64,000 bases of DNA from Liolophura sinensis (lineage: Eukaryota > Mollusca > Polyplacophora > Chitonida > Chitonidae), in assembly GCF_032854445.1 (NCBI RefSeq), contig NC_088303.1:3233501-3297500 (forward strand), in the 5' to 3' direction. Below the pieces are notes generated by a model. It had not been told where the DNA came from and ran no database searches. It saw only the letters and a program-made list of their open reading frames with translations. A program made the translations under genes and the position numbers. Of the stretch, positions 4,346 to 63,654 are shown piece by piece. Position 1 is the first letter of the stretch; every line of letters starts with the position of its first letter.

Positions 4346-4729
4346 AGGAAGGTTCTAAGGTACATTTCTGTTTGGAATAAATGAACGAATGGTTGGGATT
4401 TAACACTGCATGTGCTGCATTTCAGTGATATTAGTCGTCTCCTGGTTAGAATATATTTTTTTATCTCAAAAAATTTCACTAAAATCACGGGAGGCAAGTT
4501 TATGGAAAAGAGCCGGCATAAAAGATAATACTACTTTTTGTCAAATCACTTTCTAAAGGAAATCCATCAGTCTGAAATGTCTGGGCGTCGGATACTCAAC
4601 ATAGCCCTAAGAAACCTTCAGGTGCCTGACAAACCTCTGACTTCAAGCCATGGGCAGATCAACGGGAATTGCATATGCAAACGTCACCTCGTTTGTTATG
4701 GGCTAGAGTCATTTACACATTCATCCCAT
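4346..4729. other. Intergenic, no gene seen
   Basis: Unique-looking AT-rich sequence between the satellite and an old SINE. No ORF with recognisable similarity, RNA gene or repeat was seen. Confidence 0.5.
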
Positions 4730-6190: not shown

Positions 6191-9100
6191 CTGTTGAACA
6201 GAAGACGAGAAGACATAAAATACCACTATATCTGTATTATCTGTTATGAGATGAAACAGATTAACTGTTAGCCTTCATCGTTAAAGTGTAATCCAAAGCC
6301 AGCTTCTAACCAAATTTACAATCTGGACACTAAGGAACCTTAGAGCAGTACACTGGAATTCACATTTACATGCATGTGACGGTAAACATAATGGTCTCTT
6401 ACAATAGGCTGATAGATTTACTGGCCCTTAAGGATAGCTTGTAACAGGTAGGAAAGTAAGTTAAAACAGCTGGAAGATTCAAACAGAAACCCCAACCACT
6501 TAGCCATAACCAATCAAATCAGGTGTTTATCAGTACACAGGATGTTTTCTGAGGGCTCTAGGTGATTTCGTCCACCCCAAAATCAACTGCCAAAGTTTTT
6601 AAATATTCTGGAGTATATATCATTGTATGTGCAAGCATTGCAGTTGAGCTGAAGTGAGTATGGATTTATGGCAACTCCTTGTCATTTTTAACATTTGATA
6701 CATTTGCATATTCCTTGACAACCATACCCAGATGTCTTCCACTGTGGTGTCTATGCACTGACAGCCTCCAAAGGCAAGCAACTTCCCGTCCAGGGTAACC
6801 ATTTTGTGGTTGGCACGAGCATTTCTCATTTGTGCTCTCTCTGACCAGGAATCTTCGTTTGGCTGAAAACACCACAGGCTAGAGCATGTCCCATTCATGC
6901 CATCATGGCCTCCGGAGATGTAAATGTGATCTTCATGTACACAGCCTGAAACGTGCAAGACATCCATACTTTGATTGACTGATTTACCTTTATTTATTTA
7001 TTTATTTGATTGGTGTTTTACGTCAAGAATATTTCACTAATACGATGGCGACCATCATTATGGCGGGAAGAAACCGGGCAGTGCCCGATGGAAACCCACG
7101 ACCATCCACAGATTGCTGGCAGACCTTCCCACTTACGGTCGATTGATTTATCTGATTCGTGTTTTACTATGTACTCTAGAATATTTCACTTATACAACAG
7201 CAGCCATCATTATGGAGAAGGAAACTCGGCTGAGTCTGGGGGAAATCCAGCACCATCCACAGGTCTCTTGGCAGACCTTGCCAAGTACAACCGGAGAGGG
7301 AGCCCGCACGAGGCAGACTTGAGGCTCCTATGTCACAGTGCAGCGCTAGCATGCTAACAACCAGAGAGCGTACATGCTTTGAAGTGAATCAATCACATTA
7401 GCATATGTCAAGAACTTTACCAATAACTTTTTTTCCTTTTGGTTAGCAATTCAGGTTTTGGCCACAGTAAGTTCACTCCTACATGTATCTCAGCTTCCAG
7501 ACATGTCACATGTTCAATGCACCATCATTTTGAAGTACATGTGAATTCAAGACATCTACTTTCTAAAAGATAACTATTGATTTTGCTTATGTATTATTAA
7601 GAAATAACATTTTGCTCATAATTTTTATAAATGGTAAGACCAAAAACACTGTACATGACTGTTCATTCACAAGTTTACTTAGCTTTTGTACAGTGTGCTT
7701 TTTGTCATATTGTTTATCACACATATTTTGAAACCAATCCATACATGTATCTACTCGAACGTTTTGTTCATTTTTCTTTAATGAAAATTCTTGTACCACC
7801 AGCAATAAAGTCTACATCATTTTTAATATATATGAGACAACCCCATTTCCATGCATGAGCCATACCGTAGACGGCCATGTCCCTCTTAACGTCTAATTTT
7901 TGGTCAGTCATATTGCCTCAATTTTCAGTGCATCCTCTGGATGAGAATCTGATGTTTTCTGTCTTGTTTTATTTTGGCATTTGATTGGTGTTTTAATCCA
8001 TACTCAAGAATATTTTGACTTCACAATTTTGACGGTAGTCAGTATTATGTCATGAGGACACCCAGGGAAACACACAACCATCCGCAGGTTGTTTCCCATG
8101 TACAGCCGGAGAGGAAGCACATGTCATGAGGAAACCCAGGGAAACACACAACCATCCGTAGGTTGTTTCCCACGTACAGCCGGAGAGGAAGCACATATGT
8201 CATGAGGACACCCAGGGAAACACACAACCATCCGCAGGTTGTTTCCCATGTACAGCCGGAGGGGAAGCACATATGGCATGAGGACACCCAAGGAAACACA
8301 CAACCATCCGCAGGTTGTTTCCCATGTACAGCCGGAGAGGAAGCACATATGTCAGGAGGAAACCCAGGGAAACACACAACCATCCGCAGGTTGTTTCCCA
8401 TGTACAGCTGGAGAGGAAGCACATATGGCATGAGGAAACCCAGGGAAACACACAACCATCCACAGGTTGTTTCCCATGTACAGCCGGAGAGGAAGCACAT
8501 ATGGCATGAGGAAACCCAGGGAAACACACAACCATCCGCAGGTTGTTTCCCATGTACAGCCGGAGAGGAAGCACATATGTCATGAGGACACCCAGGGAAA
8601 CACACAACCATCTGCAGGTTGTTTCCCATGTACAGCCGGAGAGTATGCACATATGTCATGAGGAAACCCAGGGAAACACACAACTACCGCAGGTTGTTTC
8701 CCATGTACAGCCGGAGAGGAAGCACATATGTCATGAGGAAACCCAGGGAAACACACAACCATCCGCAGGTTGTTTCCCATGTACAGCCGGAGAGGAAGCA
8801 TATATGGCATGAGGAAACCCAGGGAAACGCACAACCATCCGCAGGTTGTTTCCCATGTACAGCCGGAGAGGAAGCACATATGTCATGAGGAAACCCAGGG
8901 AAACGCACAACCATCCGCAGGTTGTTTCCCATGTACAGCCGGAGAGGAAGCACATATGTCATGAGGACACCCAGGGAAACGCACAACCATCCGCAGGTTG
9001 TTTCCCATGTACAGCCGGAGAGGAAGCACATACGTCATGAGGACACCCAGGGAAACACACAACCATCCGCAGGTTGTTTCCCATGTACAGCCGGAGAGGA

Positions 9101-12100
9101 AGCACATGTCATGAGGACACCCAGGGAAACACACAACCATCCACAGGTTGTTTCCCATGTACAGCCGGAGGGGAAGCACATATGGCATGAGGAAACCCAG
9201 CGAAACACACAACCATCCGCAGGTTGTTTCCCATGTACAGCCGGAGAGGAAGCATATATGGCATGAGGAAACCCAGGGAAACACACAACCATCCGCAGGT
9301 TGTTTCCCATGTACAGCCGGAGAGGAAGCACATATGTCAGGAGGAAACCCAGGGAAACACACAAACATCTGCAGGTTGTTTCCCACGTACAGCCGGAGAG
9401 GAAGCACATATGGCATGAGGAAACCCAGGGAAACACACAACCATCCGCAGGTTGTTTCCCATGTACAGCCGGAGAGGAAGCACATATGGCATGAGGAAAC
9501 CCAGGGAAACACACAACCATCCACAGGTTGTTTCCCATGTACAGCCGGAGAGGAAGCACATATGTCATGAGGAAACCCAGGGAAACACACAACCATCCGC
9601 AGGTTGTTTCCCATGTACAGCCGGAGAGGAAGCACATATGTCAGGAGGAAACCCAGGGAAACACACAACCATCCGCAGGTTGTTTCCCATGTACAGCCGG
9701 AGAGGAAGCACATGTCATGAGGAAACCCAGGGAAACACACAACCATCCGCAGGTTGTTTCCCATGTACAGCCGGAGAGGAAGCACATATGGCATGAGGAA
9801 ACCCAGGGAAACACACAACCATCCGCAGGTTGTTTCCCATGTACAGCCGGAGAGGAAGCACATATAAGCCAGACTTAGTCTTTCTGTTGTACAGTTTGTT
9901 GACTTTTCCTTTAATGAATCACAAAACCTTCCTGAGATTCTTCCTGACAAAGACAAAAAATGTTAGAAATGGCATTCCGAGATCTAAGTTATTACACAAC
10001 TGAAAATTGGACATATCTACATACCTGCGTGTTCGTGTAGCTTGGTGTGCATGGGTTTTGTGTACGTCCACTGATTGGCTGAGGGCAAGTAGCACTCTAC
10101 TGTGTTCTCCATTCCCAAGCAGCTGGCACCCCCAACAGCATAGAGCCTCCCGTTCACACAGCCAACATAAAACAGACTTCTGCATGTGTTCATGGGACAC
10201 AGCTGAAATGCACGTATCAGTAACAAAACACCAGGCTTGTAATTATAGATGAGTATTAAATTTTAACAATTTTTTTACGATGGATGAAAAGAGAAGGAAA
10301 GGATAATGTAACTTTTCAGAAATTAGTTAAGGAATGCTATAAAAGAAGGAAATTTTAAAACAGGGTACTTGTCCATAAATTGCTATTCCTTAATGAGCAT
10401 TTAAAAGGGATACCGAATCGAAGCTGATTGGCTGATAGAGGACATGGGATTTCTTAGGTTAAATCCTGCAGCCTTGGTCATGCTTGAATAAATCTGCCAC
10501 ACCTTCAATTCCGATTACGTTGGTCATAGCCTGGAACTGCCTACCCCTCACACCAGCCAATCAAAAATGATTCTGTATCCCTTTAACAATCATCCACATT
10601 CTGGCAAAATTCCAGCACGCACACATATCATCATGTACTGACTGGCACATGAAATAAATACATTCTTTCCAAATGTACTATGCATTATTACCGGTATTCA
10701 TGTAAGTTTGAGTTTGAATGTGAGATTTAGCACTGATTTGCATGATACTTAAGGTGTAGACTTGGCTTATTCAGGTCATTTAATAAAAATAAAAAAAAGC
10801 ATACCAATAGCTCAAGTATATATGTTTATACATGAGTACTGTACAATATACACTCTGTTGACGTTTAATGATGTCAGCTACATGACCTTTAACTTCAAGG
10901 TAAAACTGAAGGCTTCTAACTTTAAACGTAGTAGGACTTATACTTGTACACAGGTTTTCGTAAAAAAAAAAAATCAAAAATCAAAATTCATCTTGTTTTC
11001 AGCATCTACTACAGAAATGTTGCCCATTTAATTCATCACATATGATGAATGAAACACCGCTGACTTTATTTATACCTCTGTCCACTCAAAGACTCTAGGG
11101 TCAAATCTGTAGACAGCACTTGTGGCAAGCTGGGCCCGGTCATGTTCTGCAGTCTGCCCTCCCAGCAGGTAGACGTAGTTATCCAGGGTACAGGTGCAGT
11201 GTTCATACACCTTGGTCAGTAAACGAGAGGTGTGTTTGTCATAGAGAACAAACGGCTCCGTAGGGCAGTCCAGGTCTGTGTCAGTGCTATCAGGAAGTGC
11301 AGATGTCAGAGCAAACTTTGTCTTGTTGCTCGGCTGCTTCTTCCAGATCCCTTGTTCCAAACCTCCCAAGGTCATCATGACCTCTACACCTTTACGTACC
11401 TTTGAGTTGTTTTCTATGAGCAGTTTGTGGCATAGTTCTGGATGATCTTGGTAATGCTTGAGACGAGAGAGAAAATCCTCAACTTGAATATTGTCCTTGA
11501 CAGCAGAGTTTAACACTGTGCTGATATCTGAATGAGAGTTAGTATATAGGCAGGGTATTCTGACAGTGTTGAGCAGTTTACCGGGAAGCTCACTGGACTG
11601 TTCCATGGCTTCTTTGTTGTTTTGAAGCCATAAAACAATCATCTCAAGCACTTCTTTCTCTGAAACCACATTTAGATCATCACTACCCAAAACTTCGATC
11701 AGCTGATCGAGCGGAAGCTCTTTGAAATGTTCTGTTTCAGAAAACTTTGACAGTGATTTACACAGGAATGATTTCAAGGACAATTGGACTTCTGTTAAAC
11801 CAAAGCTTTTTGCGATGCCATATATAGTGGTGTATGTGTTAATGTTTATTTCATCTGTCAAAAAAGCACAGCAGTAATTCTGAAGGTCTGGGATTTGTAA
11901 ATAGGTGGCTGCAAACAACATCTCCCTAACGCAGGACAGAGACAAGTCACAGGCTGAAGTCTTGATAAAGTTCACAGTCATACTGAGGGCTGATGATGTC
12001 AGATTGGCAAATTGAACAGTTTTTGTTAATGATTCTTTCATGCCACTTCTCAGACAACTATTAAAATACCCAGACTGGGAAGAGAGCAGGGTGGCATTCA

Positions 12101-15985: not shown

Positions 15986-16590
15986 GGTGGAGATAGCTAT
16001 GGTATGCTCAACTGAAAGCGAGTGATGCTGATGTCATGCACATCCTGGTCTGATTACTATCATTAAATGTACAGTGTAAAACAGCCCCGCCTCACTGAAG
16101 ATCGAGGACAGCCTTTCACATGCTCATCACAAAGCCTATCCAACTTGTACTGGCCTAGCATTCTGAAGCAGCCATGCGCATGGCCTGCTTCTCCTTGGAG
16201 CAGTGGTAAGGTTGCGCCTGTGGCCGAGGACAGTAAGGCAAAGGAAGCCTTTATGGCTATAATAAATCTATCTTAAACTGTGCATGGACATATGGTGGTG
16301 CTGCAGTCACTGTGGAAAGCAGGTCTTCAGATTGGTATTTTATTTGCATGAGGCTTGTGCGACAACAAAGACTATTTGCGTGGACATTCATGGAGTACGA
16401 AATTGGTGTATGAACGATGTTAGTTTGGGCCTTCCTTGGCCGAACAGCAACCACAACTTTACAAACCCGCACCACAGCTAACTTCACAGATTAACCTAAG
16501 GCACTAACATGTGTACAAAGCTACTGGAACAGTGATAAAGTAGTCGTTCCCCCATACAGTGTGACAACTTACTCTGTCCACCATGCGCCT
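15986..16590. other. Intergenic, nothing recognised
   Basis: No gene or repeat supported. The tandem CACTGGGCAGTCGAGTAG repeat at about 16595-16632 marks the start of the composite element. Confidence 0.45.
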
Positions 16591-16635
16591 GATTAGAGTA
16601 GCACTGGGCAGTCGAGTAGCACTGGGCAGTCGCCA

Positions 16636-18110
16636 TCCATGAGGAGAACGTCCACGAGGAGAACGGACATCCATGAGCAGAACGGAACAAGTAACTTGTT
16701 CGTTTACGAATAATTGGGCAAGGTACGAGACTATAGGCCTGTATATTTATATAGGCCTATAGCCGAGCAGATAAATTCTCAACACTTTAAACCCCTTATT
16801 ATCCGAAAACACAGACATTACTGTAACCCTGAAGACCTTCTCTAATGTGTCATTGTTAATTAGTAACCTAATAGTCCTCCATCACTAACTTGAAGAAAAA
16901 ATATTAAAGATCCACGAGGAGGACCTTGCCTAGTTCACCTCCCCATAGGTATAAAGTATAACACCCACGAGGAGGACGGTGGCTAATTTAACTTCCTACT
17001 GGCATAAGATACAACATCGACGAGAAGGACAGTGGCTAATTTACCTTCCTCCAGGTAAAAGGTACAACATCCACGAGGAGGACGGTGGCTAATTTACCCT
17101 CATATAGGTATAAAGTACAACATCCACGAGGAGGACGGTGGCTGATTTACCTTCCTATAGCCATAAAGTACAACATCCACGAGGAGGACGGTTGCTAGTT
17201 TACCTTCCTATAGGTATCAGGTAGAACCTCCGCGAGGAGGACGGTGGCTACTTTACCTTACTGCAGGTATCAGGTACAACATCCACGAGGAGGACGGTGG
17301 CTAATTTAACTTCATATAGGTATAAGGTACAACATCCATGAGGAGGACGGTGGCTAATTTACCCTCATATAGGTATAAAGTACAATATCCACGAGGAGGA
17401 CGGTGGCTAATTTACCTTCCTATAGCCATAAAGTACATCCACGAGGAGGACGGTGACTAGTTTACCTTTCTATAGGTATAAAGTTCAACATCCACGAGGA
17501 GGACGGTGGCTGATTTATCTTCCTACTGGTATAAAGTACAACATCCACGAGGAGGACGGTGGTTAGTTTACCTTTCTGGAGGTGTCAGGTACAACATCCA
17601 CGAGGAGGACGGTGCCTGATTTACCTTCCTACTGGTATAAAGTATAACATCCATAAGGAGGACGGTGGCTAATTTACCTCCATGTAGGTATAAGGTACAA
17701 CATCCACGAGGAGGACGGTGGCTAACTTACCTCCATGTAAGCATGAGGTACAACATCCACGAGGAGGACGGTGGCTAATTTACATTCCTACTGGTATAAA
17801 GTAGAACATCCATGAGGAAGACGGTGGTTAAGTTGCTTTCCCATACGTATAAGGTACCACATCCACGAGGAGGAAGGTGGAAAATTTATCTTCCTATAGT
17901 TATAAAGTACAACATCCACGAGAAGGAGAGTGGCTAATTAACCTTTCTACATGTATAAAATTCAACATCCACGAGGAGGACGGTGACCAATTTACCTTCC
18001 TATAGCTATAGAGTACAACATCCATGAGAAGGACGGTGGCTGATTTACCTTCCTATAGGTATAAAGTTCAACCTTTATAGGTATAAAGTTTTCCATTCTT
18101 CAGGTATGCA
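16636..18110 (+). repeat. Left 53-bp minisatellite array (plus orientation)
   Basis: About 21 units of 53 bp between roughly 16905 and 18090, typically CATCCACGAGGAGGACGG, TGGCTAATTTACCTTCC, TATAGGTATAAAGTACAA; starts at 17071, 17124 and 17177 give the period. Before it (16636-16690) lie shorter related motifs with GAGGAGAACGG. Some units use CTGCAGG or CTACTGG in place of CTATAGG. The array at 28960-31660 is the same repeat in reverse complement. Confidence 0.93.
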
Positions 18111-20378
18111 GTACAACATTGATGATTACCAAATTAACTTCTAATAAAGATTTAACTGATTGATTGACACACACTTATGAGGACAATAGATAAGTTATAT
18201 GTCGTTTTGGTACAGCTAAAATCTATATGCGGAGGACTGTTGCCTTGTTTATTTCTGAGAAATATATATAACATATAATGTATAAGTATGTATGTAAGGT
18301 GATGGATACCAGGGTTTGTTACATGTTTAGGAAACTTTTTTAAAACTAAGTATTAGCCCGATTTGAATGGAAGCCCTATAAGTTATATAATAGCTCTTCG
18401 CCAGCCTGATCACACTTGTGTGGTAATTAACCATAGGTTGTTTATTGTTACTTAGAAATGTTATATGTTTTATGTAGGCCTACATGCTTATTATTATTGC
18501 TTTATTCTGTGTACAGTAAACTTCTGACGCTTAATGTTGTAATCCCTTTTGATCTCTGCCTGTGCATAGCTGTTCACAGCGCTCTTGTTGTCAATTAACG
18601 TTCAATGTCCATTTAATTAGTATGTAAAAACTTGCAGAGATATAAAGCCTGGCGAATTGTTACGCTCAGTTCCTTGATAAGGACAAACAAGGTCTTTGCT
18701 GCTGTTGTATAGCCTTATTTATAACCCCCAAAATACACATGTGTAGCTTGAGACCATAATTTGTAAAGTGCGAGAAACATTGAATATTTAAGAAAGCTTA
18801 TTTTGCCAAAGATATCAAGCAAGTTTTTCAGAGTTTGCTTCTTAACACACCCCACACATTATTTCCTCTTATGGCAGAGAAAGGTTCAAGCGTCTAAATT
18901 CTGTGTGTCTGCCCTCTGACTTTCATGCATGACCGAGTTTATTTTGTTATACCGCAGAAGCTTACATCCACATATATCAGATTTCACTGGTGGACAAGTG
19001 ATCGCCCGCTTTATTGCTCCTGAATTCTCTAAGTGAAAACATTTAACTTGAAACTAAATTAGGCGTCTCCATCTCATCGGGTTTTCATATGTCGCGCTAC
19101 CATAAAGTTACTTGCTTTATTTATGTATTTATTTATTTGATTATTGTTTAACGCCATCCTCTCTTTAGGACACATGGTTTGTTTATTCACAACGTAATGT
19201 ATATAACATCCTAGCCCAGCAAACCACGGTGGAATTTTTAGAAACACATTATAGTCCTCAGACTTAAAAAGGAATTCAGACTTATCTCCTTGTCAAGGAA
19301 ATCTGTCAGCTATAACTTTCTCATACCCAGAATTGTTTTCTTTGACCTAAGCAAGATGCATTTATTACTACTATTATTAAGTTTTAAAAAATAAAATGAT
19401 CAGAATCATAAAAATCCACACATCACAAAATATTTCTTAACAAATATGTGTACAGGCAAAAGAATGCAACAATACAGGTGTATGTAAATATACCGCCAAT
19501 GTAATTATGTAACTCAATTCGCATTAAAATTTGCTTTTCCCTGCCCGACAACCAAGCAGCGGAAGATCCATGTATAATACAATATGAATTGGGGTCGGGC
19601 TTTTTGAATAGCGTTTTGATTTTATTCATACAATGAATGAAATCTTCATGAAATGGCTGAAAAGGAAGTATGTCAAGCAAATACCATTTCATTTGTACTA
19701 CCTAGAACATTGGGCCTACTATAGTGCTTGAAAGTCATATCTGCAGTGTCGTGATAACTTTTGTTATGGTTGAAGAATTTAAAATGTACTTCGGACCAAT
19801 ATCTTCAGCTTAGAAATTAAGTAGGACTATTTTATTTTGTTCATATGGACATGTTGTCTCACATGAATGATCTTCATGTCTCCTAATCCCAATTTACTTG
19901 GAATTCGACGGTGGAGAGTTATTTCCAGAAAAATTAACGAGTTCTATCATGTACGAGTTTGTTTATGTTTTTCGGACGCCAGAGCAATACAATATTTGGA
20001 AAAACTCGATGTTGATAGAGGTATAAATGATTTTCTAATTCGATTATAAGATAAAACATTTTCAGTTAAAGTTAAAAACGTGGAGTTTCTAAGAACATTC
20101 AGTATATAGGCCTGCTCTTTCTACACTTTTATACCTCCGTGCATCACTTGCCACAATGTCTAAACAAAACAAATTTATGGGTAACTTTCGTGTGTCTGGA
20201 CCGTGGAAAGCCGAGGTGGCGGTGTGTTTGTAAACACAGTTTCCCATCGCATGTCTGCTGAAGTAATACTATCTCAGGGTGACTTGTTAGCTTTGCAGTT
20301 TGGCTAATGTAGTACATAGCTTTTATAAAAGCTTTCCACTTTTCCGACGAGTTTATTTCTGGACTCTGCAATGTAACA
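18111..20378. other. Unassigned sequence 5' of the KDZ-like gene
   Basis: AT-rich. The only recognisable item is a SINE 3'-tail remnant at about 19114-19162. Should contain the promoter of the KDZ-like gene, if it has one; no core promoter motif was convincing. Confidence 0.45.
19114..19162 (-). mobile_element. SINE 3'-end remnant
   Basis: Only the tail survives: a (TTTA)n-like stretch followed by TTGATTATTGTTTAACGCC, matching the end of the SINE at 13889. Severely truncated. Confidence 0.55.
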
Positions 20379-20583
20379 ATGACAGCACACCAACCTGTCG
20401 TGATTCAGTCTGTGAATGAATTGTTAAGTTGTGTAAAAAGTTGCAAGGATTGTTGTAAAGGAGACTATATTTCATTCCATTGTCCGTTATGTCCACCGTC
20501 AAAGTTCAAGCCAACAAGGAAGAAGAAAGTAGAGAACCATTTGAGAGCTGTACACTGGAAAGCATGCGTTGAGGGACAAAACG
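20379..20583 (+). CDS. KDZ-like gene exon 1
   Basis: 68 codons plus one base, from ATG at 20379 to the donor ACG|GTACGT. It encodes the first zinc finger, FHCPLCPPSKFKP .. VENHLRAVHWK. Upstream 5' UTR is not defined. Confidence 0.7.
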
Positions 20584-21618
20584 GTACGTAAAATTAAGCA
20601 TCAATACGTTTCATTCATCTAAAATACTGTGTACATATATAGTTATCGTCTGCGGCTTTATATGATAGGCGAGCTTTTTGATTAACTTTTCATGTTAAAA
20701 AAATAGATACATTCCCTGTCAATGAGATCTTATTTTCGTGATTGGCCCCGGAGATGGATGTAAAACAAAAAGATGCCATCAACTTCCGGTCGGGCAAATG
20801 CAAGTGTCTAATTTGCAAGGGAAAAAATAACTAACACAAATAGATCAGATCATCTATGCCTGCAATAGAACTTCTGCTCAATGGCCTCATGTGAATAGTA
20901 GTTGTGTAGTGTTTGTGTACATATTCTCTCTATTAGACCAGACAGATTAGTCATTTGGCGAGTATGTTTTAATACCACACAATGTAAAGAACGCTCCCGC
21001 TGCGCTAACCGTAACTCGAAAGCCAACAGATGTTTTTCTTACATAATGCATGAACGGTGGCAAAAATTTTAATGCCAATCACTGGAAAACTATTCATCTG
21101 AAATAATTTGATACGAGAGAAGAGCACGATTTGTCCTGCTGACCAACTTTCAACATTGCACCATTACTGTTTTTCGCATCGTGTCTCAAAAATCAGAATA
21201 AAGTGTGCCTAAAAGCGAAAACTTCTTAAGAAACAAAACAAAGCCACATTCGTGGTTAGCTCTTTATGCCTAATGCATGAACAGTAGGTAAATTGTGGTC
21301 AAACTTCTTAAGCTAGAACAAAGCTAGAACAAAAACAAAGCCAGATTCATAATCTATTTGTCAAATTACACTGTATATATTCACACAAGAAATTGGATCA
21401 GCTCTGCACGGGTTTAAACTTCTTTTCAAAGGCTTCACTGTGCGAGCAATCTAATTAGGCTTTAAGTCTGCGCTATATGCTACAGTCCATGCACATATGC
21501 CCATAAAACTGACCGCCATCACATGGGCTGTAAATTGAGCTGTTTTTGAGGCTTAAAACACCATTGAAATAAATAACTAACTTATCACAATGTTCAAAAG
21601 ACGTGTTTATTTTTGTAG

Positions 21619-22962
21619 GTAAAGGTGCCGTTCTTTGCCATCTAACTGAACACAGTTCTTCACGGCATTTCCACTGCACGTCGTGTTCAAGGATAATTAT
21701 TCGCAAAGAGAACTTGAAGCACCACGTTCAAACATGTGTTAATAGTCTTAACACGCCTGTTGCATCCAAATCAATCCCCTCTACCCGTACAGCGAAAAAT
21801 TCTTATTCGTCGCGTGCAAAACACAGATCAGAAAACCACCAGAATAATGCAGTAGAGGCACAGGAAAGTGACGCGGTGACAAGTGATAAAGACCATTGCT
21901 ATGCCACCCAGAGTATTAATCTGAAGACGACTTGTTCTAGATCATTGGAATCCCAGATTTCAACAAAGACGTCATCCCTTCGAGCAAGTTGTACACTATG
22001 TGGTAAAATTATAACAGTGAAATGGATGAAATCGCACTTGAAATCTCACCAGTCTCTACAGCATGATGTTAATGTCTACAATCATCACCATACTGTTGTA
22101 ATCGATCCAGCCAAAGGAGTGTATTGTTCGTCCAAATCAAGAAGTGGTCCTCAAATCCCGATACATCTGCAGAAAAATACGCTCACAAATACTCCGATCA
22201 GCATTTGTGAAAACAATTCATGTATTGAGTTGAAATCGGCGGCAAGAAGAGGTGGAAACAGTTCCTTTGAGTGTGATCACGTTCGTTCCGTTCCTTATGC
22301 CATTCCTGGAAGAGAAACAATTCTTAGACAAGACACGCTTGAATGCATGCGGAGTGAAAATTTCATCACTGAAAGTAGATACAATGAACTAAAGCAGTGC
22401 CAAGAAACAGCTGAAAGCTCAGGACGCCCATTTGTAGTACTCATTCCACCTCATCAGTCGACCTATTATCCTAGACATATTCATCTGTCTGTGTACACGG
22501 GGAAAAAAAGGTTCTGGTGCAAACTACAACGGACTATAGTAACGTACGATAAACAAAGAAACACCACAATATGCAGGTGCACAAAAAGCATTCGCACATG
22601 CCTCCATAAACTCATCTGCAAATGGTATCTAAAACAAGAACTACCAGAATTGATATCGTCAGATGACGTGCAGTCATTATCTGATCAAGAAACTGACCAA
22701 CAAGAATCTGACACCGAACAGGTAAACGGGAGCCAAAGGCCAGTTCCACTGAGAAATAACAGCCAACATTTCCGATCATTACCACGGAGTATACCAAAGG
22801 ATATCCCTCTGGAAGTCAGGCAAATTATCAGAAATCACAAAAGAGATGGTATCCTCGAAATCACTCCAAGAGAAACATCATGTGCTCGATGCCAAGGACC
22901 ACTCGATGTTCGTCTTGTTTCCAGCAAGTCGAAAATAATACATTTACAACTAGTGGTAAAAG
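21619..22962 (+). CDS. KDZ-like gene exon 2 (fingers and CxC cluster)
   Basis: 1344-bp exon, acceptor TTTGTAG|GTAAAGG and donor GTAAAAG|GTAAGG, both in phase 1. It encodes two more finger-like motifs (HFHCTSCSRIIIRKENLKHH; ASCTLCGKIITVKWMKSHLK), a Ser-rich linker, the VVLIPPHQSTYYPRHIHLSV block, the SWIM-like ICRCTKSIRTCLHKLICKW, an acidic Gln-rich linker and SCARCQGPLDV. The open frame continues beyond the donor to 23120, but the exon 3 join gives the family-like sequence. Confidence 0.72.
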
Positions 22963-23514
22963 GTAAGGTCTCCAACTATCAAGAACTTTTGGTCACTGTG
23001 CTCAGAACAACTGAAGGAATGAATGGTTATGGACATGATATATCGACAATATTCTTGTCATACGGTATCCTGGCACAAGCTAGGTCCAAATTCAGGACAC
23101 TAAGCAGAACTGAACAATGAAAAAACCAGCTTGGCTTAATATTAAACATGACATTGTAATATATTCACTGTTAAATAATTATATTAAGCCTTTATGTCTG
23201 ATCCTATATATAACTGAAAAGATTATGTGGATATTTTGTCAAATATACACCCACGGTGGAAATGTTCTCATAAAAAAACACAAAAGGTTTTGGAGAGAGT
23301 GATATACGTAAATATGATGTAGTGTATTAATGATTCAGCATGGAATGGTTTAGCATGGCAGTTCTTTCCTTGATTTCCTTGATTTTCTATTTGGTTACAT
23401 TTATCTGAAATTAGACCATGTCTGGATAACCTAATGGTTCGTCGTTATATAATTAATAATAGTTAATATAATTAAGTATAAAATTTTAGAATTATCAAAC
23501 GCCTTCTCTTTCAG

Positions 23515-23654
23515 ATATAACCGTATACAACAAGGTATGCAAACGATGCCAACTGTTGTATCAATATAAAGAATGGAACGAGGGCATTCATAACTTCAAT
23601 GATGTCATTTTCCTTGGGCTTGATGTATGTCTTTTCATCAGAGCTGGACTACAG
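23515..23654 (+). CDS. KDZ-like gene exon 3
   Basis: 140 bp, acceptor CTTTCAG|ATATAACC and donor CTACAG|GTACTC. It encodes ITVYNKVCKRCQLLYQYKEW and then NEGIHNFNDVIFLGLDVCLF, a block typical of KDZ-associated proteins. Enters in phase 1, leaves in phase 0. Confidence 0.68.
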
Positions 23655-23868
23655 GTACTCTGAAGTGTTTTATGTTTCTTAATGATAAAATGTCAGATTT
23701 ACTCTATTTTATTTATTTCACTCTATTGAGCATGCATAATGTAGATTTTAACAGAAAATTTAACATCAACAAACCTTCCAGTTTAATGTTATCTCAAGTC
23801 AGGATATACTTACTAAAACTTCAGTTATCAATATTGAAGATAAAATTTTGACGTTTAATTGTTTTCAG

Positions 23869-24070
23869 AACCACGTTGCAATAGGGAGGTCTGTTGCCAT
23901 GCTTCAAGAAATGATCGGAGAGAATGTTGATACTTACAATTTACATCAAGCATACCTACATTTCGAGGCATGTACTGACCACGATTACAGTTTCCATTGT
24001 GTCCTTTGTGGGTATCACCCTTCCATACTTATCTTCGACACCTGTCGCAAAGTAGCGTTCCGCCATTCAG
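23869..24070 (+). CDS. KDZ-like gene exon 4
   Basis: 202 bp, acceptor TTTTCAG|AACCAC and donor CATTCAG|GTAGGT (phase 1). It encodes NHVAIGRSVAMLQEM, then AYLHFEACTDHDYSFHCVLC, then GYHPSILIFDTCRKVAF. The CxxC followed by a hydrophobic strand ending in Asp resembles the first catalytic motif of KDZ transposases (inference). Confidence 0.68.
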
Positions 24071-24429
24071 GTAGGTGGGCATGCAACGTATATGACAAGA
24101 CATGTATTTGGATGATATACATTTCTGAATATTCTGAATCAGAAGATTAAATTTAATGTTACACAATGACATGTATAAACGTGGTTGAAAAGCGCTCTAG
24201 ATATCCAGCAATATTAACATTAACACCCCAACAGCAAAACCATAAATACATATTCGATTACCTGCCCATACATGTCAACTTTCATGCCAAAAGCATAAAA
24301 TTGAAAGTAGTTTCATAAGCCATCGGACTAGGCCATATTTGGATTGTTAATAAATTCTAAAACTCTGATGGTGTTAAATAATTATTTATCCTGGAAGTAT
24401 AAAGTCAAAATTTCCGACATATCTTGCTG

Positions 24430-25078
24430 TTACTTACTATGGCAAGCCGTTCCGGCCTTAGAGCATTTATTTAAGACATTTTGAATTCATTCCAGATATC
24501 TTGAATTCATTTGGACATATCTGGAAATCATTTACAGACATCTGAAATTCATTTTAAGATATCTAAAATAAATTTCGTGCTGTATATATCACAAAAAGCA
24601 TTTCAGATATAACAAAATGAATTCAAGATCTCTTAAATAGACGTCAATTTGATATATCTGGAAGTCTCTTTGTGATAGGTGCCCTACATTTGTCTGGTTA
24701 TTTATGTGAACAAAATGTATGCTCCTTAATTATATCACCACGATCATCCATGATGGCTTGCAGTGCGCATGAGCAGATCTGTACTAATTCTGTTTCCGCT
24801 CAGGGAGCAGTTATTGCATTTTGTACATTTTGGCGCAATTTCTGTGGCTCTTTTACGGTTATGTGCATCCTTGTTTTTTATTCCGAGATATGTTCAAAAG
24901 AATTTTTGATGTCTGGAAAGGATTTTCGGATATGTGAAATACATGATCTATATATTAACACAAGGCTGCTATTTAAGAAATCTAGAAATGAATTGTAGAT
25001 ATCTGAAAATTAATTCAAGATATCTTGAAATAAATTCAAGATATCTGAATTAGGCCGAAATGGCTTGCCATAAGTAAG
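24430..25078. mobile_element. About 648-bp non-autonomous element with terminal inverted repeats
   Basis: The left end TTACTTACTATGGCAAGCC, GTTCCGGCCTTA matches the reverse complement of the right end (TAGGCCGAAATGG, CTTGCCATAAGTAAG). Subterminal regions on both sides carry many copies of a GATATCTTGAATTCATT-like motif in both orientations. No transposase. It sits in intron 4 of the KDZ-like gene. This is the structure of a MITE or other foldback element; the superfamily was not assigned. Confidence 0.8.
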
Positions 25079-25222
25079 GGCAGATACTTTACACGTCATG
25101 AAGGTGGAGGTAGATGAATATATGTACCAACACGCAAATGAAGTACAAGTTATTCAATGATATACACCTGTTATGGGGAAAGTTTTGTGGTCACATGAAA
25201 ATGCTACACACTCAACTATAAG

Positions 25223-25357
25223 TCAATAACGACGTCACTTTGTTATCTTTCGTGTCTGATTTGTCCATTCCGTCTGGCGAAGTTTCTGACACGGTTGATG
25301 CTAAGGCTTTCTGGTCTGCAGTTGAGAACAACGTAAGAAACCCTGGCACTCGACCAG
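25223..25357 (+). CDS. KDZ-like gene exon 5
   Basis: 135 bp, acceptor CTATAAG|TCAATAAC (a weak polypyrimidine tract) and donor CGACCAG|GTAAGA. Phase 1 on both sides. It encodes NNDVTLLSFVSDLSIPSGEV, then AKAFWSAVENNVRNPGTRP. The acceptor was chosen because it is the one that keeps the frame open. Confidence 0.55.
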
Positions 25358-25540
25358 GTAAGATATCAATATGCTAAAAGTAGTCAAATTTTAATTATTG
25401 TTTTGGCAATTGACTACAAAATTTACTGCACAACTAGTGAAGCTCTACGTCTAAATTTAAAGACCTTTCACGATACAATCTTCCAGTCCGAAAATGTAGG
25501 ACAGTGTGTATTTTCAACTGAAAGCAATGATTGATCTCGA

Positions 25541-25781
25541 CCCTGTCCCACAAAGCAATCGTAGGCGAAGGTTATTGTAACTAGCATGGCTGCCCATCTC
25601 TTTTACATGGGTTGTCAAGGTAGTTATAATCAGCTTAGAATAAGGCTGCTTTGAGGAACAGGGCCCAAAGCAAACGTAGGCTAAGCTGATTGTAACTACC
25701 ATAGCTACCTATCTCTTTAACATGAGTTGTCATGGTAGTTACAATCAACCTAGTTTACGACTGCTTTGTGGAACAGGGGCC
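25541..25781. mobile_element. Two adjacent palindromic MITE-like units
   Basis: Each about 120-bp unit is itself an inverted repeat: CCCTGTCCCACAAAGCAATC .. GGCTGCTTTGAGGAACAGGG, and then CCAAAGCAAACGTAGGCTAA .. CGACTGCTTTGTGGAACAGG. The centres carry CCATCTCTTTTACATGGGTT-type sequence with GTAACTAC-type arms. The shared CACAAAGC end also occurs at 15772-15985. Confidence 0.72.
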
Positions 25782-25834
25782 AGGTGATTAGCAAATGAGG
25801 TTAACTACTAACAGGTTGTTCTCCCGTGCTTTAG

Positions 25835-26022
25835 AACAAAATACCATAACTCCGTCCTACGAGTTTTGGAGTCCTTGGATTGGCGAAAACTCTCGCAGTG
25901 GTGACTTGATTTACAACACGGAAATAAAGAAATGTTCTCAAAGTATAAACAAGGATAATGAAGACCCCGTGTCCGAACCGATGCCAGAAGAAACCATCAT
26001 CAAGATGTTAAAGGATGAAAAG
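25835..26022 (+). CDS. KDZ-like gene exon 6
   Basis: 188 bp, acceptor GCTTTAG|AACAAAAT and donor GAAAAG|GTATTT (phase 0). It encodes NTITPSYEFWSPWIGENSRS followed by a charged stretch ending IIKMLKDEK. Confidence 0.62.
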
Positions 26023-26284
26023 GTATTTCCAGTGTAGGATGTAATAACAATTTACTGTATGCACTCAAGTGAAAAGAGAACGTTTAAGAGTTCAGGGTAT
26101 TTGCACTTACTTCAAAGTGCATGTACTTATCTGGGGATATTTTATCCTATATTCTCTCAACGTTTATCTGTATAATGCAAATGCCTTTTTTCTCTGACAT
26201 TAATTTTCGGTGATTTGCTTCGAAAACAAATTCGCTGGATTTAAATTTCGCGGATATTTAGGGTGGAATAGTATTATGAAGATT

Positions 26285-26389
26285 TAGTTATTTATTTGAT
26301 TGGTGTTTTACGCCGTACTCAAGAATATTTCACTTATGCTGACGGCGGCCAGCATTATGGGCAGAGCCCGGGGGAAACCCACGACCATA
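26285..26389 (-). mobile_element. Truncated SINE fragment
   Basis: TTATTTATTTGATTGGTG, TTTTACGCCGTACTCAAG, AATATTTCACTTATGC, CGGCGGCCAGCATTATGG, GCAGAGCCCGGGGGAAACCC, ACGACCAT, then loss of the rest. Highly similar to the consensus, so rather young. Located in intron 6 of the KDZ-like gene. Confidence 0.9.
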
Positions 26390-26472
26390 TTTATAAAGAC
26401 TGTGAAGAAATAATGATGAACACAAAAGCTTCAACACAGCTCAAACCAAAAAATTCTCATATCTTTTGACAG

Positions 26473-26609
26473 GTGTCGACAATCCGAAAAATGTGTCGTG
26501 AAGTGGGTGTTAAAGCAGAAGGGTCCTCTGTTGATATGATCAGGAGGTTGAGAGACATGTCGATTTCACGTGGGGCATTGGACAAGGCTTATGAGAAATT
26601 ATTTGGATG
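26473..26609 (+). CDS. KDZ-like gene exon 7
   Basis: 137 bp, acceptor TTGACAG|GTGTCG and donor GGATG|GTGAGA (phase 2). It encodes VSTIRKMCREVGVKAEGSS, then RRLRDMSISRGALDKAYEKL and FGW. Confidence 0.6.
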
Positions 26610-26852
26610 GTGAGAAGACGCAATACCGCCTAATTATTTCTTAACCTGGACACCTGGAGTGAACCGCATAAACTCAATTAGATATGGCCAAGTATAAACA
26701 TGGCAGGTTTCCTCACATGAGCATTTTTAGGTGATACAACATCAGTTAAACTATCATTGTATTTATTAAATCGTTCTCTTTGGCTGTGACGCTTAAAATC
26801 ACTCAGCCATCAAGAAGTTTATTATCCTTAAATACGTTCTTTATTCTTCTAG

Positions 26853-27735
26853 GAGGATGGGCGGTTGGTTGTTACCATCACGGTGTTGTTTATGCCAGTA
26901 AAAGCCTGCTGTGATCTGAAAGTTCAAGGGATTATCTCGACATTGAAAGATCTATGAAACATCGACCTAATATCACCATCTGCGACATAGCGTATCTACT
27001 GGCAAGACAGGCCAACAAAATAATTCCACATTTTTATTCCCCAAACGAAGGAAGACTGGCACCTCATACAGATTTAAACATTGCAAGAGCCGAAAAAAGA
27101 GAGCTGGATTGCGGGGCCGAATTTCTGACAAATCCCATTTTTCCCCCGACTGTGTCAAATCGAACAAAAACCCCGTCACAGGATCTGACGTACACTATGC
27201 GCTCTTAGACTGGTTCCACCAAGAAAACTGTAAGAGCAGGCAAGAGATACTCCGACGGTGTTCCCTGCTACCTGAGCTTAGTGGAATCATTGACACCCAA
27301 GCGGTGGAGCAACTCTTCAGCTCTCTGAAACGGGACATCTATTATTTAAATAACATGTCCCCGGTCAAACATATTTTTCTTTTTCGACTCATTATATAGC
27401 TCAGAAACGTCAGATGAAACCGAGAACTCCTTCGTAAACAAACGACAAGATTTGGACAGGGATTGTTCTACAATCAATTTGGACAGGTCTGTCAGAAATA
27501 TCTAACCGAAGTTGTGCAACCCACACTGACGGATGACACCATCCAGACGCCTGTTCGATCTGAAATTGTTGTCGACTGGGAGTATGAACATGGCGAGACC
27601 AATGAAGAGATCGCCAATACTTCTGAAAGTGGACGTGGGGAACCATCAGCCTGTGGATTAACGGATACTAAAGTCCAAGAGAACATACTTTTGGGCTCCA
27701 CTCTATCAGAGTTAAAGCACTTGTACACAAGCTAG
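26853..27735 (+). pseudogene. Broken last exon of the KDZ-like gene
   Basis: Family blocks are present but in different frames: GGWL near 26859; CYHHGVVYASKSLL then TGA (26912-26914); SSRDYLDIERSMKHRPNITI and AEFLTNPIFPPTV in the same frame as that TGA; then, after a shift near 27150-27170, NPVTGSDVHYALLDWFH and TQAVEQLFSSLKRDIYYLNN. A further open stretch (27463-27735) ends at a TAG. The acceptor is TTCTAG at 26851-26852. I describe only the breaks; no repaired version is implied. Confidence 0.62.
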
Positions 27736-27739
27736 TCCA

Positions 27740-28959
27740 GCTATCAGGAACCGAGCGAATTCAGAAGATTTTAAATGTGGATGGGTTTGTATTTACCTTG
27801 TATTTTATCTATTTGTTTTTATTTTTTGGTATAATTAGATATGGCTATTTTGGCTCCAGTTATGTATGGAGTAGTATCGGAATGGCTTTCCAGCTTTCAA
27901 GTTATCTATATACAGACTGTTCAAATGTGTATAAACATTTGACAAGACTAAAGCCATAAAAAAGGAGGAAAGTAACTAAGAATATTGCAGTCATCAAATA
28001 GTCATTTACATGTAGATGTGTGTTTAATTATTTATCATTATAATTTCATAATTTTGTTCCGCGCATGGCTTGCTAAAAAGTGTGCAGGCATATATGTTTA
28101 ATTAGTAGCAATCTATATACATTTCCAGATTTCAGTCTTTTACAAATGAATAGGAAGCCTTTAACAGGATTGCATTCTGTTCACATTTTTTCATTGTAGG
28201 TACGATGGGACAGTCAGGAATAGGAGATGTAAGGAAGCTTTGGTTCGGGATGTAGTCTCGCATCGTTTCACACGGCACTTAAAAAAAGTGAACAATTAAG
28301 AGCACACCGCTTAATCAGCAGTACTGAATCGTAACTGGCATGCTGTGTATGTAAATAATAGATGACTGATGAGTTGAAAATGTGTATTTTATATCATTGT
28401 TATCATTGTATCATGGCTATATGCCTTGTACATATACCCTACACCTATAATGTATTTTCCATTCCACCGCCATACCATTCATTGCTTCGCTTACATATGT
28501 ATAGAATCTTAGAATGTACAAGAGAGTTAATACACTAATAAACTTGCCTAGGGTACTGCAGCATATGTATTAAAACACAACTTTTATCCTTACATCTCAG
28601 TAAAGCGTTCTTCAGTTTATAATAGTTTTTTCTGTAAAGGTTTTTGCAAACCGGATGAATACAATGCTGTAACCAGTTTTAGGGAAAGGAACTTGTTGAA
28701 TTAGAGTTTCTGTTGGCAAACTCTCCATGGGGATGGGTTATGGCACTGCGCGAGGGCTCCTTAAAATACATATATTTAAACTAGAATGTGGTTGTTGACT
28801 TTTTTATTCAACTGTCCGGAATTGGTGGTCACTGGATTTCTCATATTCTGTGAATCGAGGATTATATTCTAAGGCTCTGTAAAAATTTTCTCATCTACGT
28901 ACATGTAGAGAAAGGCAAAATCGGTTTATCCTCGTTCGTGTTGGGCTTTTCCCATCTGC
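27740..28959. other. Sequence between the KDZ-like gene and the right array
   Basis: AT-rich. A possible further 3' exon of the KDZ-like gene begins after TTGTAG at 28199, reading YDGTVRNRRCKEALV before a stop, but this cannot be supported. Nothing else was recognised. Confidence 0.4.
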
Positions 28960-31660
28960 GGAGAAAAAGGATGGTAAATTAGTCACCGTCCTCCTCGTGG
29001 ATTTTGTACCTGATACCTGTAGGAACGTCAATTAACCACCGTCCTCCTTATGGATGTTGTACTTTATACCTGCAGGAATGTAAATTAGCCACCGTCCTCC
29101 ACATGGATTTTGTACTTTAAACTTATAGGAACTTAAATTAGTCACCGTCCTCCTCGTGGATGTTGTATCTTATACCTATAGGAAGATAAATTAGGCACCA
29201 TCCTCCTCATGGATATTGTACTTTAACCCTATAGGGATGTAAATTAGCCACCGTCCTCCTCGTGGATGTTGTACCTTATACTTATAGGGATGTAAATAAG
29301 CCACCGTCCTCCTCGTGGATGTTGTACTTTATACCTATAGGAAGATAAATTAGCCACTGTCTTTCTCGTGGATTATAGCTAAAGAAAGGTAAATTAGCCA
29401 CCGCCCTCCTCGTGGATGTTGTACTTTATACCTACAGGAAGTTAAATTAGCCACCGTCCTCCTCATGGATGTTGTACTTTATACCTATAGGAAAGTAAAC
29501 TAGCCAACGTCCTCCTCATGGATGTTGTATTTTACACCTGCAGAAAGGTAAATTAGTCACCGTCCTTCTCGTGGATGTTGTACTTTACACCTGCAGAAAG
29601 GTAAATTAGTCACCGTCTTCCTCGTGGATGTTGTACCTTACACCTGCAGGAAGGTAAATTAGTCACCGTCCTCCTCGTGGATGTTGTACTTTACACCTGC
29701 AGAAAGGTAAATTAGCCACCGTCCTCCTCATGGATGTTGTACTTCACACCTGCAGAAAGGTAAATTAGCCACCGTCCTCCTCGTGGATGTTGTACTTCAC
29801 ACCTGCAGAAAGGTAAGTTAGGCACCGTCCTCCTCATAGATGTTGTACTTCACACCTGCAGAAGGTAAATTAGCCACCGTCCTCCTCATGAATGTTGTAC
29901 CTTATACCGGCAGGAACTTAAATTAGCCACCGTCCTCCTCATGGATGTTCTACCTGATACCTATAGGAAGGTAAACTAGCAACCGTCCTTCTCGTGGATG
30001 TTGTACTTTATAGCTATATGAAGGTAAAGTAGCCAACGTCCTCCTCGTGGATGTTGTACTTTATACCTATATGGATGTAAATTAGCCACCGTCCTCCTAG
30101 GGGATGTTGTACTTTATACCTGTAGGAAGATAAATCAACCACGGTCCTCCTCGTGGATGTTGTACTTTATAGCTATAGCCTCGTGGATGTTGTACTTTAT
30201 ACCTGCAGGAACATAAATCAGTCACCGTCCGCTTCGTGGTTGTTGTACCTTATGTCTATATGAACATAAATTAGTCACCGTCCTCCTCGTGGATGTTGTA
30301 CTTTATACCTGCAGAAAGGTAAATTAGCCACCGTCCTCCTCATGGATGTTGTACTTCACACCTGCAGAAAGGTAGGTCTAAGTTAGCCACCGTCCTCCTC
30401 ATAGATGTTGTACTTCACACCTGCAGAAGGTAAATTAGCCACCGTCCTCCTTGTGGATATTGTACTCTACACCTGCAGAAAGGTAAATTAGTCACTGTCC
30501 TCCTCATGGATGTTGTACTTTACACCTGCAGAAAGGTAATTTAGTCACCGTCCTCCTCATGGATGTTGTACTTTATACCTATAGGAAAGTAAACTAGCCA
30601 CCGTCCTCCTCATGGATGTTGTACTCTACACCTGCAGAAAGGTAAATTAGTCACCATCCTTCTCGTGGATGTTGTACTTTACACCTGCAGAAAGGTAAAT
30701 TAGTCACCGTCCTCCTCGTGGATGTTGTTCTTTACACCTGCAGGAAGTTAAATTAGTCACCATCCGCTTCGTGGTTGTTGTACTTTATGCCTATAGGAAC
30801 ATAAATTAGTCACCGTCCTCCTCGTGGATATTGTACTTTATACCTGCAGGAAGGTAAATTATCCACCGTCCTCCTCGTGGATGTTGTACTTTATACATAT
30901 AGGGATGTAAACTAGCCACCGTCTTCCATGTGGATGTTGTACTTTATACCTATAGGCAGGTAAATTAGCCACCGTTTTCCTCGTGGATGTTGTACTTTAT
31001 AACTATATGAAGGTAAAGCATCCACCGTCCTCCTCGTGGATTTTGTTCTTGATACCTGGAGGAAGGTAAATTAGTCCCCGTCCTCCTCGTGGATGTTGTA
31101 CTTTATACCTGCAGGAAGGTAAATTACCCACCGTCCTCCTCATGGATGTTGTTCCTGATACCTGGAGGAAGGTAAATTAGCCACCGTCCTCCTCGTGGAT
31201 GTTGTACTTTATACCTATAGGAAAGTAAACTAGCCAACGTCCTCCTCATGGATGTTGTACTTTACACCTGCAGAAAGGTAAATTAGTCACCGTCCTTCTC
31301 GTGGATGTTGTATTTTACACCTGCAGAAAGGTAAATTAGTCACCGTCCTCCTCGTGGATGTTGTACTTTACACCTGCAGGAAGTTAAATTAGTCACCTTC
31401 CTCCTCATGGATGTTGTACTTCACACCTGCAGAAAGGTAAATTAGCCACCGTCCTCCTCATGGATGTTGTACATCACACCTGCAGAAAGGTAAATTAGTC
31501 ACCGTCCTCCTCGTGGATGTTCTACCTTATAACAGCAGGAAGGTAAATTAGCCACCGTCCACCTCGTGGATGTTGTACTGTATACCTGCAGGAAGTTAAA
31601 TTAGCCACCGTCCTCCGTATGGATGTTGTACTTTATATCTATATGAAGGTAAATTAGGCA
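28960..31660 (-). repeat. Right 53-bp minisatellite array (minus orientation)
   Basis: About 50 units of 53 bp, plus-strand form CCACCGTCCTCCTCGTGG, ATGTTGTACTTTATACCTGC, AGGAAGGTAAATTAG. It is the reverse complement of the array at 16636-18110. Two main variants occur in blocks: one with TATACCTATAGGAAG and one with CACACCTGCAGAAAGG. Every plus-strand unit carries an AAGGTAAAT that looks like a 5' splice site. Confidence 0.95.
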
Positions 31661-32419
31661 CATTTTATATAGATGCCGGGGGAAAACAACCGTCTTGCCA
31701 AGTACCTGTATATTGTATAGTCCTACAGGCCTATGAACCGCATGTCGGGACAACGGGTCTGGAGAGGCCGTGGTCTTTTGGGTTATTATGATATAGAATA
31801 CCTTGTCTTATTCATCATCTGTCTTCGATAGTTCGATAATTTATACCGATAATTTATAAGATACCTTGTCTTATTCATCATCTGTTGTCTATAGTTCGAT
31901 CATTTGGAGAAGCCCTGTAGTAAATAAAATTTAAGTTGATAGTATGAGATATACAGTGATATAATCCGTATGTCTTTTTAGTGAACACAAATGTGTAACT
32001 ATATCCCACTACTTTACATTTCGCGCCATATGTGTGGTCATGCGCACTACACCGTCCTCCTGATGGATGTCCGTTCTCCTGGTGGGTGTACTTCCGTTCC
32101 CCTCGTGGATGTAGGCTGACGAGTACTGTTGCCTGATTACTGAAATTCGGATATTACTAAATTCCAACATTCTATTTACGAAAAATACGACGGTCAAATA
32201 AAAATTATTGTCACCATTATATCTAAAAATGATTAAATTTGCTAAACTGTTAACGAGATGAAAATGTGATGATATAAACATTTTCATTAAATCTAAATAT
32301 CTAACGTAACTAAGGTGTATTGATGTAAAAGTATTTAAAGTTTTTGCATTTCGGATCAAAGTCATATTCGAGTTTTGAGGACACCGAACAAAGCGTGGAT
32401 TAATTGCCAGAAGAAAACA
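31661..32419. other. Right flank of the element and NUDT21 5' region
   Basis: Contains a 25-bp direct repeat around ATACCTTGTCTTATTCATC (about 31799 and 31861), the outer inverted motif of the composite element at about 32050-32115, and only about 280 bp more before the NUDT21 ATG. The NUDT21 promoter should lie here. No TATA box in a convincing position was seen. Confidence 0.5.

Positions 32420-63654
<31,235 letters not shown>

Follow-up and report, generated by a model that had tools for sequence, protein, structure and literature searches.

The 64,000-nt stretch of the chiton Liolophura sinensis genome analyzed here (assembly GCF_032854445.1, contig NC_088303.1, positions 3,233,501 to 3,297,500; in the following called the window) contains one copy of a transposon at 16596-32131, 15,536 bp in length. 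A putative transposase gene lies between two 53-bp minisatellite arrays that are inverted relative to each other. The assignment of this feature to the class II (cut-and-paste) DNA transposons, with a foldback architecture, is well supported. A first-pass annotation, made from the letters alone, had placed a possible transposon of about 15.5 kb at 16595-32140. The size agrees with our measurement, and the limits were nearly exact, starting one base early and ending nine bases late, just past the right copy of the target-site duplication. The features of the element, from left to right, are as follows:

16588-16595, no strand: target-site duplication, left copy, CCTGATTA, 8 bp
16596-16631, plus strand: left terminus GAGTAGCACTGGGCAGTC, 18 bp, present twice in tandem in the window copy
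16635-16685, plus strand: tip motif (17 bp), three direct copies, presumed transposase-binding sites
16910-18072, plus strand: left 53-bp array, 21-22 units
21573-23117, plus strand: putative transposase gene, open segment of 515 amino acids, residues 14-58 similar to a C2H2 zinc finger
23764-24147, plus strand: exon-like open segment; its SILIFD contains the Asp proposed, by eye, as the first catalytic residue
26470-26610, plus strand: exon-like open segment with a SAP match below threshold (E 0.059)
26750-27399, plus strand: counterpart of a frame of 222-223 amino acids that is open in two sister copies, with a stop and a frame break in the window; proposed second Asp and Glu (by eye)
28968-31661, minus strand: right 53-bp array, reverse complement of the left one, 48 units by the matching used
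32052-32110, minus strand: tip motif of the right end, three copies, in the opposite orientation to those on the left
32120-32131, minus strand: right terminus CGAGTACTGTTG
32132-32139, no strand: target-site duplication, right copy, CCTGATTA

The annotation had described ends made almost wholly of minisatellite units. This holds for the inverted arrays at both ends and not for the outermost parts, as the array units of the window copy stop short of the tips, leaving 314 bp outside the left and 470 bp outside the right array. The outermost 18 bases of the left and right tips show only partial likeness by eye. The direct 18-bp duplication of the left tip (16596-16613 and 16614-16631) occurs in the window copy only, among the left ends printed.

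We searched 609 Mb on 632 contigs for further copies, using the sequences outside each array as queries, which gives lower bounds for the numbers of ends. At least 42 left-end and at least 40 right-end places were identified. They fall into at least 51 loci, of which 31 have both ends, 11 a left end only and 9 a right end only. The ends of the 31 two-ended copies are spaced 7.3-22.8 kb apart. Most end alignments stop at a common base. Allowing for two substitutions, the left tip GAGTAGCACTGGGCAG was recognized in 28 of these 31 copies; the right tip CGAGTACTGTTG, with one substitution allowed, was recognized in 30. A perfect 8-bp target duplication, the length the annotation had quoted for Zisupton, flanks 19 of the 31, including the window copy (CCTGATTA), which was scored with the outermost copy of its doubled left tip.

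For one insertion, C3d, which lies in a repeat family, we made a comparison with empty paralogous sites. Its rejoined insertion site, used as query, yielded 40 match rows, 38 of them from other loci. All 38 cross the junction unbroken at 78-90% identity, and 23 of them span 1-234 or 1-235; the C3d locus itself splits into 1-122 and 115-235, with the 8-bp overlap corresponding to the duplication. The features expected of cut-and-paste elements with terminal inverted repeats are thus present: fixed ends with a duplication of constant length, an empty site (C3d) and inverted ends. The 31 two-ended copies, their target duplications and the empty site support the annotation's inference that a transposon has its ends at the arrays.

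Tandem Repeats Finder (TRF) counted 22 copies in the left 53-bp array (16910-18072) and about 50, spread over overlapping rows, in its reverse complement on the right (28968-31661). Inverted matches between these two arrays reach 641 nt at 82% among the 25 longest of 220 pairs. We read seven further copies whole, which together with the window are called full copies below, and scored a unit at 36 or more matches over its 53 positions. Arrays are present on both sides in inverted order in all eight full copies, with 21-57 units on the left and 16-84 on the right, and no plus unit was found in any right half and no minus unit in any left half. The long inverted tandem-repeat ends of variable unit number that characterize the foldback class therefore occur in 8/8 full copies. 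The plus-left, minus-right arrangement noticed at first is supported by TRF, the inverted matches and the full copies alike; the search for other copies with both arrays, which had been recommended as a check, showed it in every full copy read. Arrays occurring widely without any KDZ-like gene had been named beforehand as contrary evidence. Of 44 array positions, chosen by hand to stand for 150 listed rows of 513 matches, one is away from any recognized end of the element; the other 43 lie within a two-ended copy or less than 20 kb from a single end.

We also compared the array units with each other (n = 799, nearest neighbor, ties shared). For 570 units the closest relative was a same-side unit of a different copy, and for 187.2 it was a same-side unit of their own copy. 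Relatives from the opposite side accounted for 34.5 units when they came from a different copy and for 7.3 when they came from the unit's own copy. The left and right arrays are therefore separate lineages, passed on together with the element. As a point of reference, the 77-bp array at 1-4348 yielded 33 matches, all at its own locus within about 9.4 kb, in a search that skips very common words and hence does not prove rarity; this array behaves as an ordinary minisatellite would. It runs on leftwards along the contig. Further long tandem arrays in the window lie at 8046-9865 (76-bp period), 42020-42954 (39/78), 55939-56796 (40-bp period) and 57305-58019 (20/64).

The tips share a 17-bp motif (ATCCACGAGGAGGACGG-like, scored at up to four mismatches; one left tip was not anchored). 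Of the 30 left tips 28, and of the 31 right tips 30, hold three copies in the same orientation; the remaining three tips hold two, and inverted copies were absent from all 61 tips scored. Among 2000 shuffles of one left tip, five gave a single motif copy and the rest none. The matching outer motifs first noted in the window are hence a regular feature, with two or three copies in 61 of 61 scored tips. When the 53-bp unit is treated as circular, each of its eight best-conserved 17-column windows overlaps this tip motif. A motif that is shared with the tips and is also conserved best within the unit suggests that the arrays are amplified sites for transposase binding, and this is probably what they are.

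Alternatively, slippage at short inverted repeats could have produced the arrays as a neutral by-product, with no advantage for transposition. We regard this as a serious though less likely reading. It would agree with the wide variation in unit number (left 21-57, right 16-84) and with the only slightly better conservation of the motif compared to the rest of the unit. On the other hand, none of the eight full copies lacks an array on either side, and the best-conserved segment of the unit is the very one common to the tips.

The longest open segment between the arrays (515 amino acids) recurs as 66 match pieces in the genome. A PDB search aligned its residues 14-58 with a C2H2 zinc-finger chain at a best E of 2.1e-4. 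The annotation had seen a single spliced, KDZ-like gene here. In the window copy, the gene is broken and open in pieces only. In two sister copies, C6d and C1d, a frame of 222-223 amino acids is open at the place that a stop and a frame break interrupt in the window, and the window lacks 164-187 bp at 20724 that are present in 9/9 aligned sister copies. Codon-position bias against two diverged copies gave a weak exon signal only. For the open exon of C1d, KDZ was the sole Pfam model reported (E 0.22; 11.7 bits compared to a cut-off of 26.6; profile positions 159-206 of 217). The match lies below the cut-off, and 17 further Pfam queries gave no KDZ match. KDZ had been proposed before the test was run, which lends the weak match some weight. 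No confident transposase match came from Pfam, PHROGs or PDB searches, and genome searches with the Pfam KDZ model were empty, as were their controls. Membership of the element in KDZ is therefore weakly supported and tentative. This exon may also resemble the C-terminal part of animal HMGXB3-like proteins; a literature search on HMGXB3 with transposase listed one unrelated paper.

Another superfamily, Mutator/Phantom or P-like, might mobilize the element instead, with the KDZ-like gene as a captured or older passenger; we regard this as a less likely but serious alternative. These are the usual foldback types, an 8-bp target duplication would also fit P elements, and the Pfam support for KDZ is weak. 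However, no P-element, THAP or MULE model was reported in the single-sequence Pfam scans of the gene pieces, and the KDZ-like block (25060-27735) was found at 13 loci, 11 of them near a recognized left end of the element.

The KDZ-like block (here taken as 25055-27721) is absent from seven of the eight full copies, that is, from all but the window copy. A shared filler (95-99% alike) is present in six of these seven; C1e represents a shorter form. Perfect duplications flank six of the seven (C7a, C8b, C1e, C3d, C1c and C10c; none in C8a), from which it follows that defective forms also moved. Three copies on different contigs (C4:2312162, C6:78976153 and C9:20607484) have identical gene breaks, which suggests amplification of one defective copy.

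To characterize the target sites, we used 11 insertions with 1.5-kb flanks, taken from the 19 with perfect duplications. CpG observed/expected falls from 0.91 near the insertion to 0.64-0.69 beyond 500 bp. Six of eight CTCGTAC motifs lie in the inner 150 bp, which make up 10% of the bases (binomial 2.3e-5, an optimistic value because the motif was picked after the flanks had been inspected), and five of these six are located 22-34 bp left of the insertion centre. Six of the 11 sites have no CTCGTAC in their 3 kb of flanks or, in one case, a single one at 161 bp. In short flanks, CTCGTAC occurs within about 120 bp in 9 of 20 sites (the 19 perfect ones plus C6b), compared to two such motifs in the whole 64-kb window, one of them within the element (AAGGTACGAG at 16720-16729, placed by eye). 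Motifs of the CTCGTACATT/CTCGTACCTT type cluster around several insertions in CpG-rich DNA, at distances of up to about 35 bp, for example at the inner ends of L102, L110 and L112, and may represent an unrecognized host promoter motif. Some flanks (C7a, C6a, C1a) look like gene starts by eye.

Several copies are nested or paired. In C1b, one copy appears by eye to lie inside the tip of another, with the duplication GGCTGCCC. C3b is a head-to-head pair, for which the same reading applies only if a 4-bp hairpin loop has been inverted (by eye). Head-to-head pairs lie at L017 (C3:12259368-12259732) and L024 (C1:16830853-16831213); in one pair, one copy is clearly inserted into the left tip of the other. 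The C6b insertion (ends L043/L044) sits within a few tens of bases that resemble fused left and right tips by eye, possibly an excision footprint.

Taking these results together, we favor, with reasonable though limited confidence, a model that combines a multi-exon KDZ-type transposase, array binding, defective copies moved in trans and insertion into CpG-rich DNA near CTCGTAC. The transposase, encoded on several exons, would carry a zinc finger at its N-terminus and a split KDZ-type DDE core. Produced from intact copies, it would bind the 17-bp motif at both tips and once per 53-bp unit, so that the inverted arrays would supply dozens of binding sites per end. This large number of sites may raise end recognition and help to join the ends of an element of 7-23 kb. 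The arrays would travel with the element and change in length by slippage or unequal exchange, and copies without the catalytic exons would be mobilized in trans. Insertion would favor CpG-rich sites tens of bases from CTCGTAC, probably promoters.

Some observations weigh against this model. Binding is predicted from the sequence, and the margin in conservation between the motif and the rest of the unit is modest (1.63 vs 1.41 bits). Weak KDZ matches below the cut-off were obtained for two of eight exon copies (best E 0.14), and none for 17 other protein pieces or composites (ten window pieces, three longer ones and four others, one of these queries being a longer version of the C1d exon). No intact gene was seen in any copy. 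Twelve of the 31 two-ended copies lack a perfect duplication, with a one-base offset in C6b, no recognizable terminus in four and a mismatch in seven. The old copy C3x (91% over aligned bases) has 23-24 units in its left array and no right array within about 5 kb. In the old copy C4x (about 80%), the match covers the gene region only, with no tips nearby and no array unit within about 7 kb upstream or about 5 kb downstream of the gene match. C4x speaks against a strict coupling of gene and arrays, or it shows the decay of this coupling. The annotation had listed the KDZ-like gene at the orthologous place in relatives without arrays as adverse evidence; C4x is an old copy of the gene without arrays within the genome itself.

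Two other explanations fare much worse. Rolling-circle elements are not known to make a target duplication. A Helentron-type element with satellite arrays, modeled on the non-autonomous Helentron elements that carry satellite-like arrays in oysters (PMC7492417), is very improbable and was rejected on the 8-bp duplications and the inverted arrays at both ends, which do not fit rolling-circle elements, and on the Pfam scans of the gene pieces, in which no Rep or helicase model was reported. A chance satellite flanking a host gene and amplified locally, for which only the richness of the window in tandem arrays would speak, is ruled out, as the copies are spread over many contigs with tips that agree, and target duplications and the empty site were found.

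Repeat-filled foldback ends are already known; the new points are the unit number, the probable KDZ link and the clustering of insertions near CTCGTAC. More speculatively, and with clearly less confidence than for the model above, this could be the first KDZ-type, or a wholly new, foldback-ended transposon. Its inverted arrays, with up to 57 and 84 putative transposase-binding units in the copies read, might then form a multivalent end complex, with CTCGTAC, a motif also present in its own subterminal DNA (16720-16729), guiding it to host promoters, and the element might be prone to insertion into the tips of its own copies. The element is also a clear route for spreading a minisatellite through the genome. 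Because natural copies carry 16-84 units per end, the role of repeat-filled ends as arrays of binding sites becomes directly testable.

Among KDZ elements, Zisupton and Dileera also have 8-bp duplications (PMC12730594), a length that fits them and is compatible with other superfamilies, too. A further, tentative likeness is the weak, below-cut-off Pfam KDZ match of the proposed catalytic exon. Unlike here, array-type ends are not mentioned for them in the accessible text (PMC12730594). Kyakuja is covered by the same Pfam model but differs in its 7-bp duplications, its CA..TG termini and its lack of inverted repeats (PMC12730594). Among the papers listed by searches on KDZ/Zisupton and on foldback or repeat-filled ends, none was seen to describe a KDZ element whose ends are built like this.

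Different transposon superfamilies are believed to have acquired foldback ends independently, and repeat-filled ends are held to have arisen repeatedly in evolution (PMC3169594, PMC4079207). With a probable KDZ member, this convergence would reach a superfamily for which the accessible sources do not mention foldback ends, and would do so at a much larger unit number. FB4, Tm1 and Tetris resemble the chiton element in that their inverted ends are composite, filled with repeats and variable in the number of units (PMC4022104, PMC3169594, PMC4079207). Tm1 differs as a Mutator/Phantom element with mostly 9-bp duplications, compared to 8 bp and a KDZ-like gene here, and Tetris, for which no transposase is known, has units of about 220 bp instead of 53 bp. 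Galileo of Drosophila (P superfamily) has F repeats of about 210 bp, at most three per end, and 7-bp target duplications (PMC3573991), whereas the chiton element has no reported P/THAP match, 8-bp duplications and 16-84 units of 53 bp per end. The likeness lies in the long inverted ends with internal tandem repeats that carry extra transposase-binding sites, which are predicted here and were located in Galileo by footprint and electrophoretic mobility shift assays, with higher-order transposase multimers proposed (PMC3688188). It is on these repeat-filled, site-bearing ends of Galileo that our binding-array model draws.

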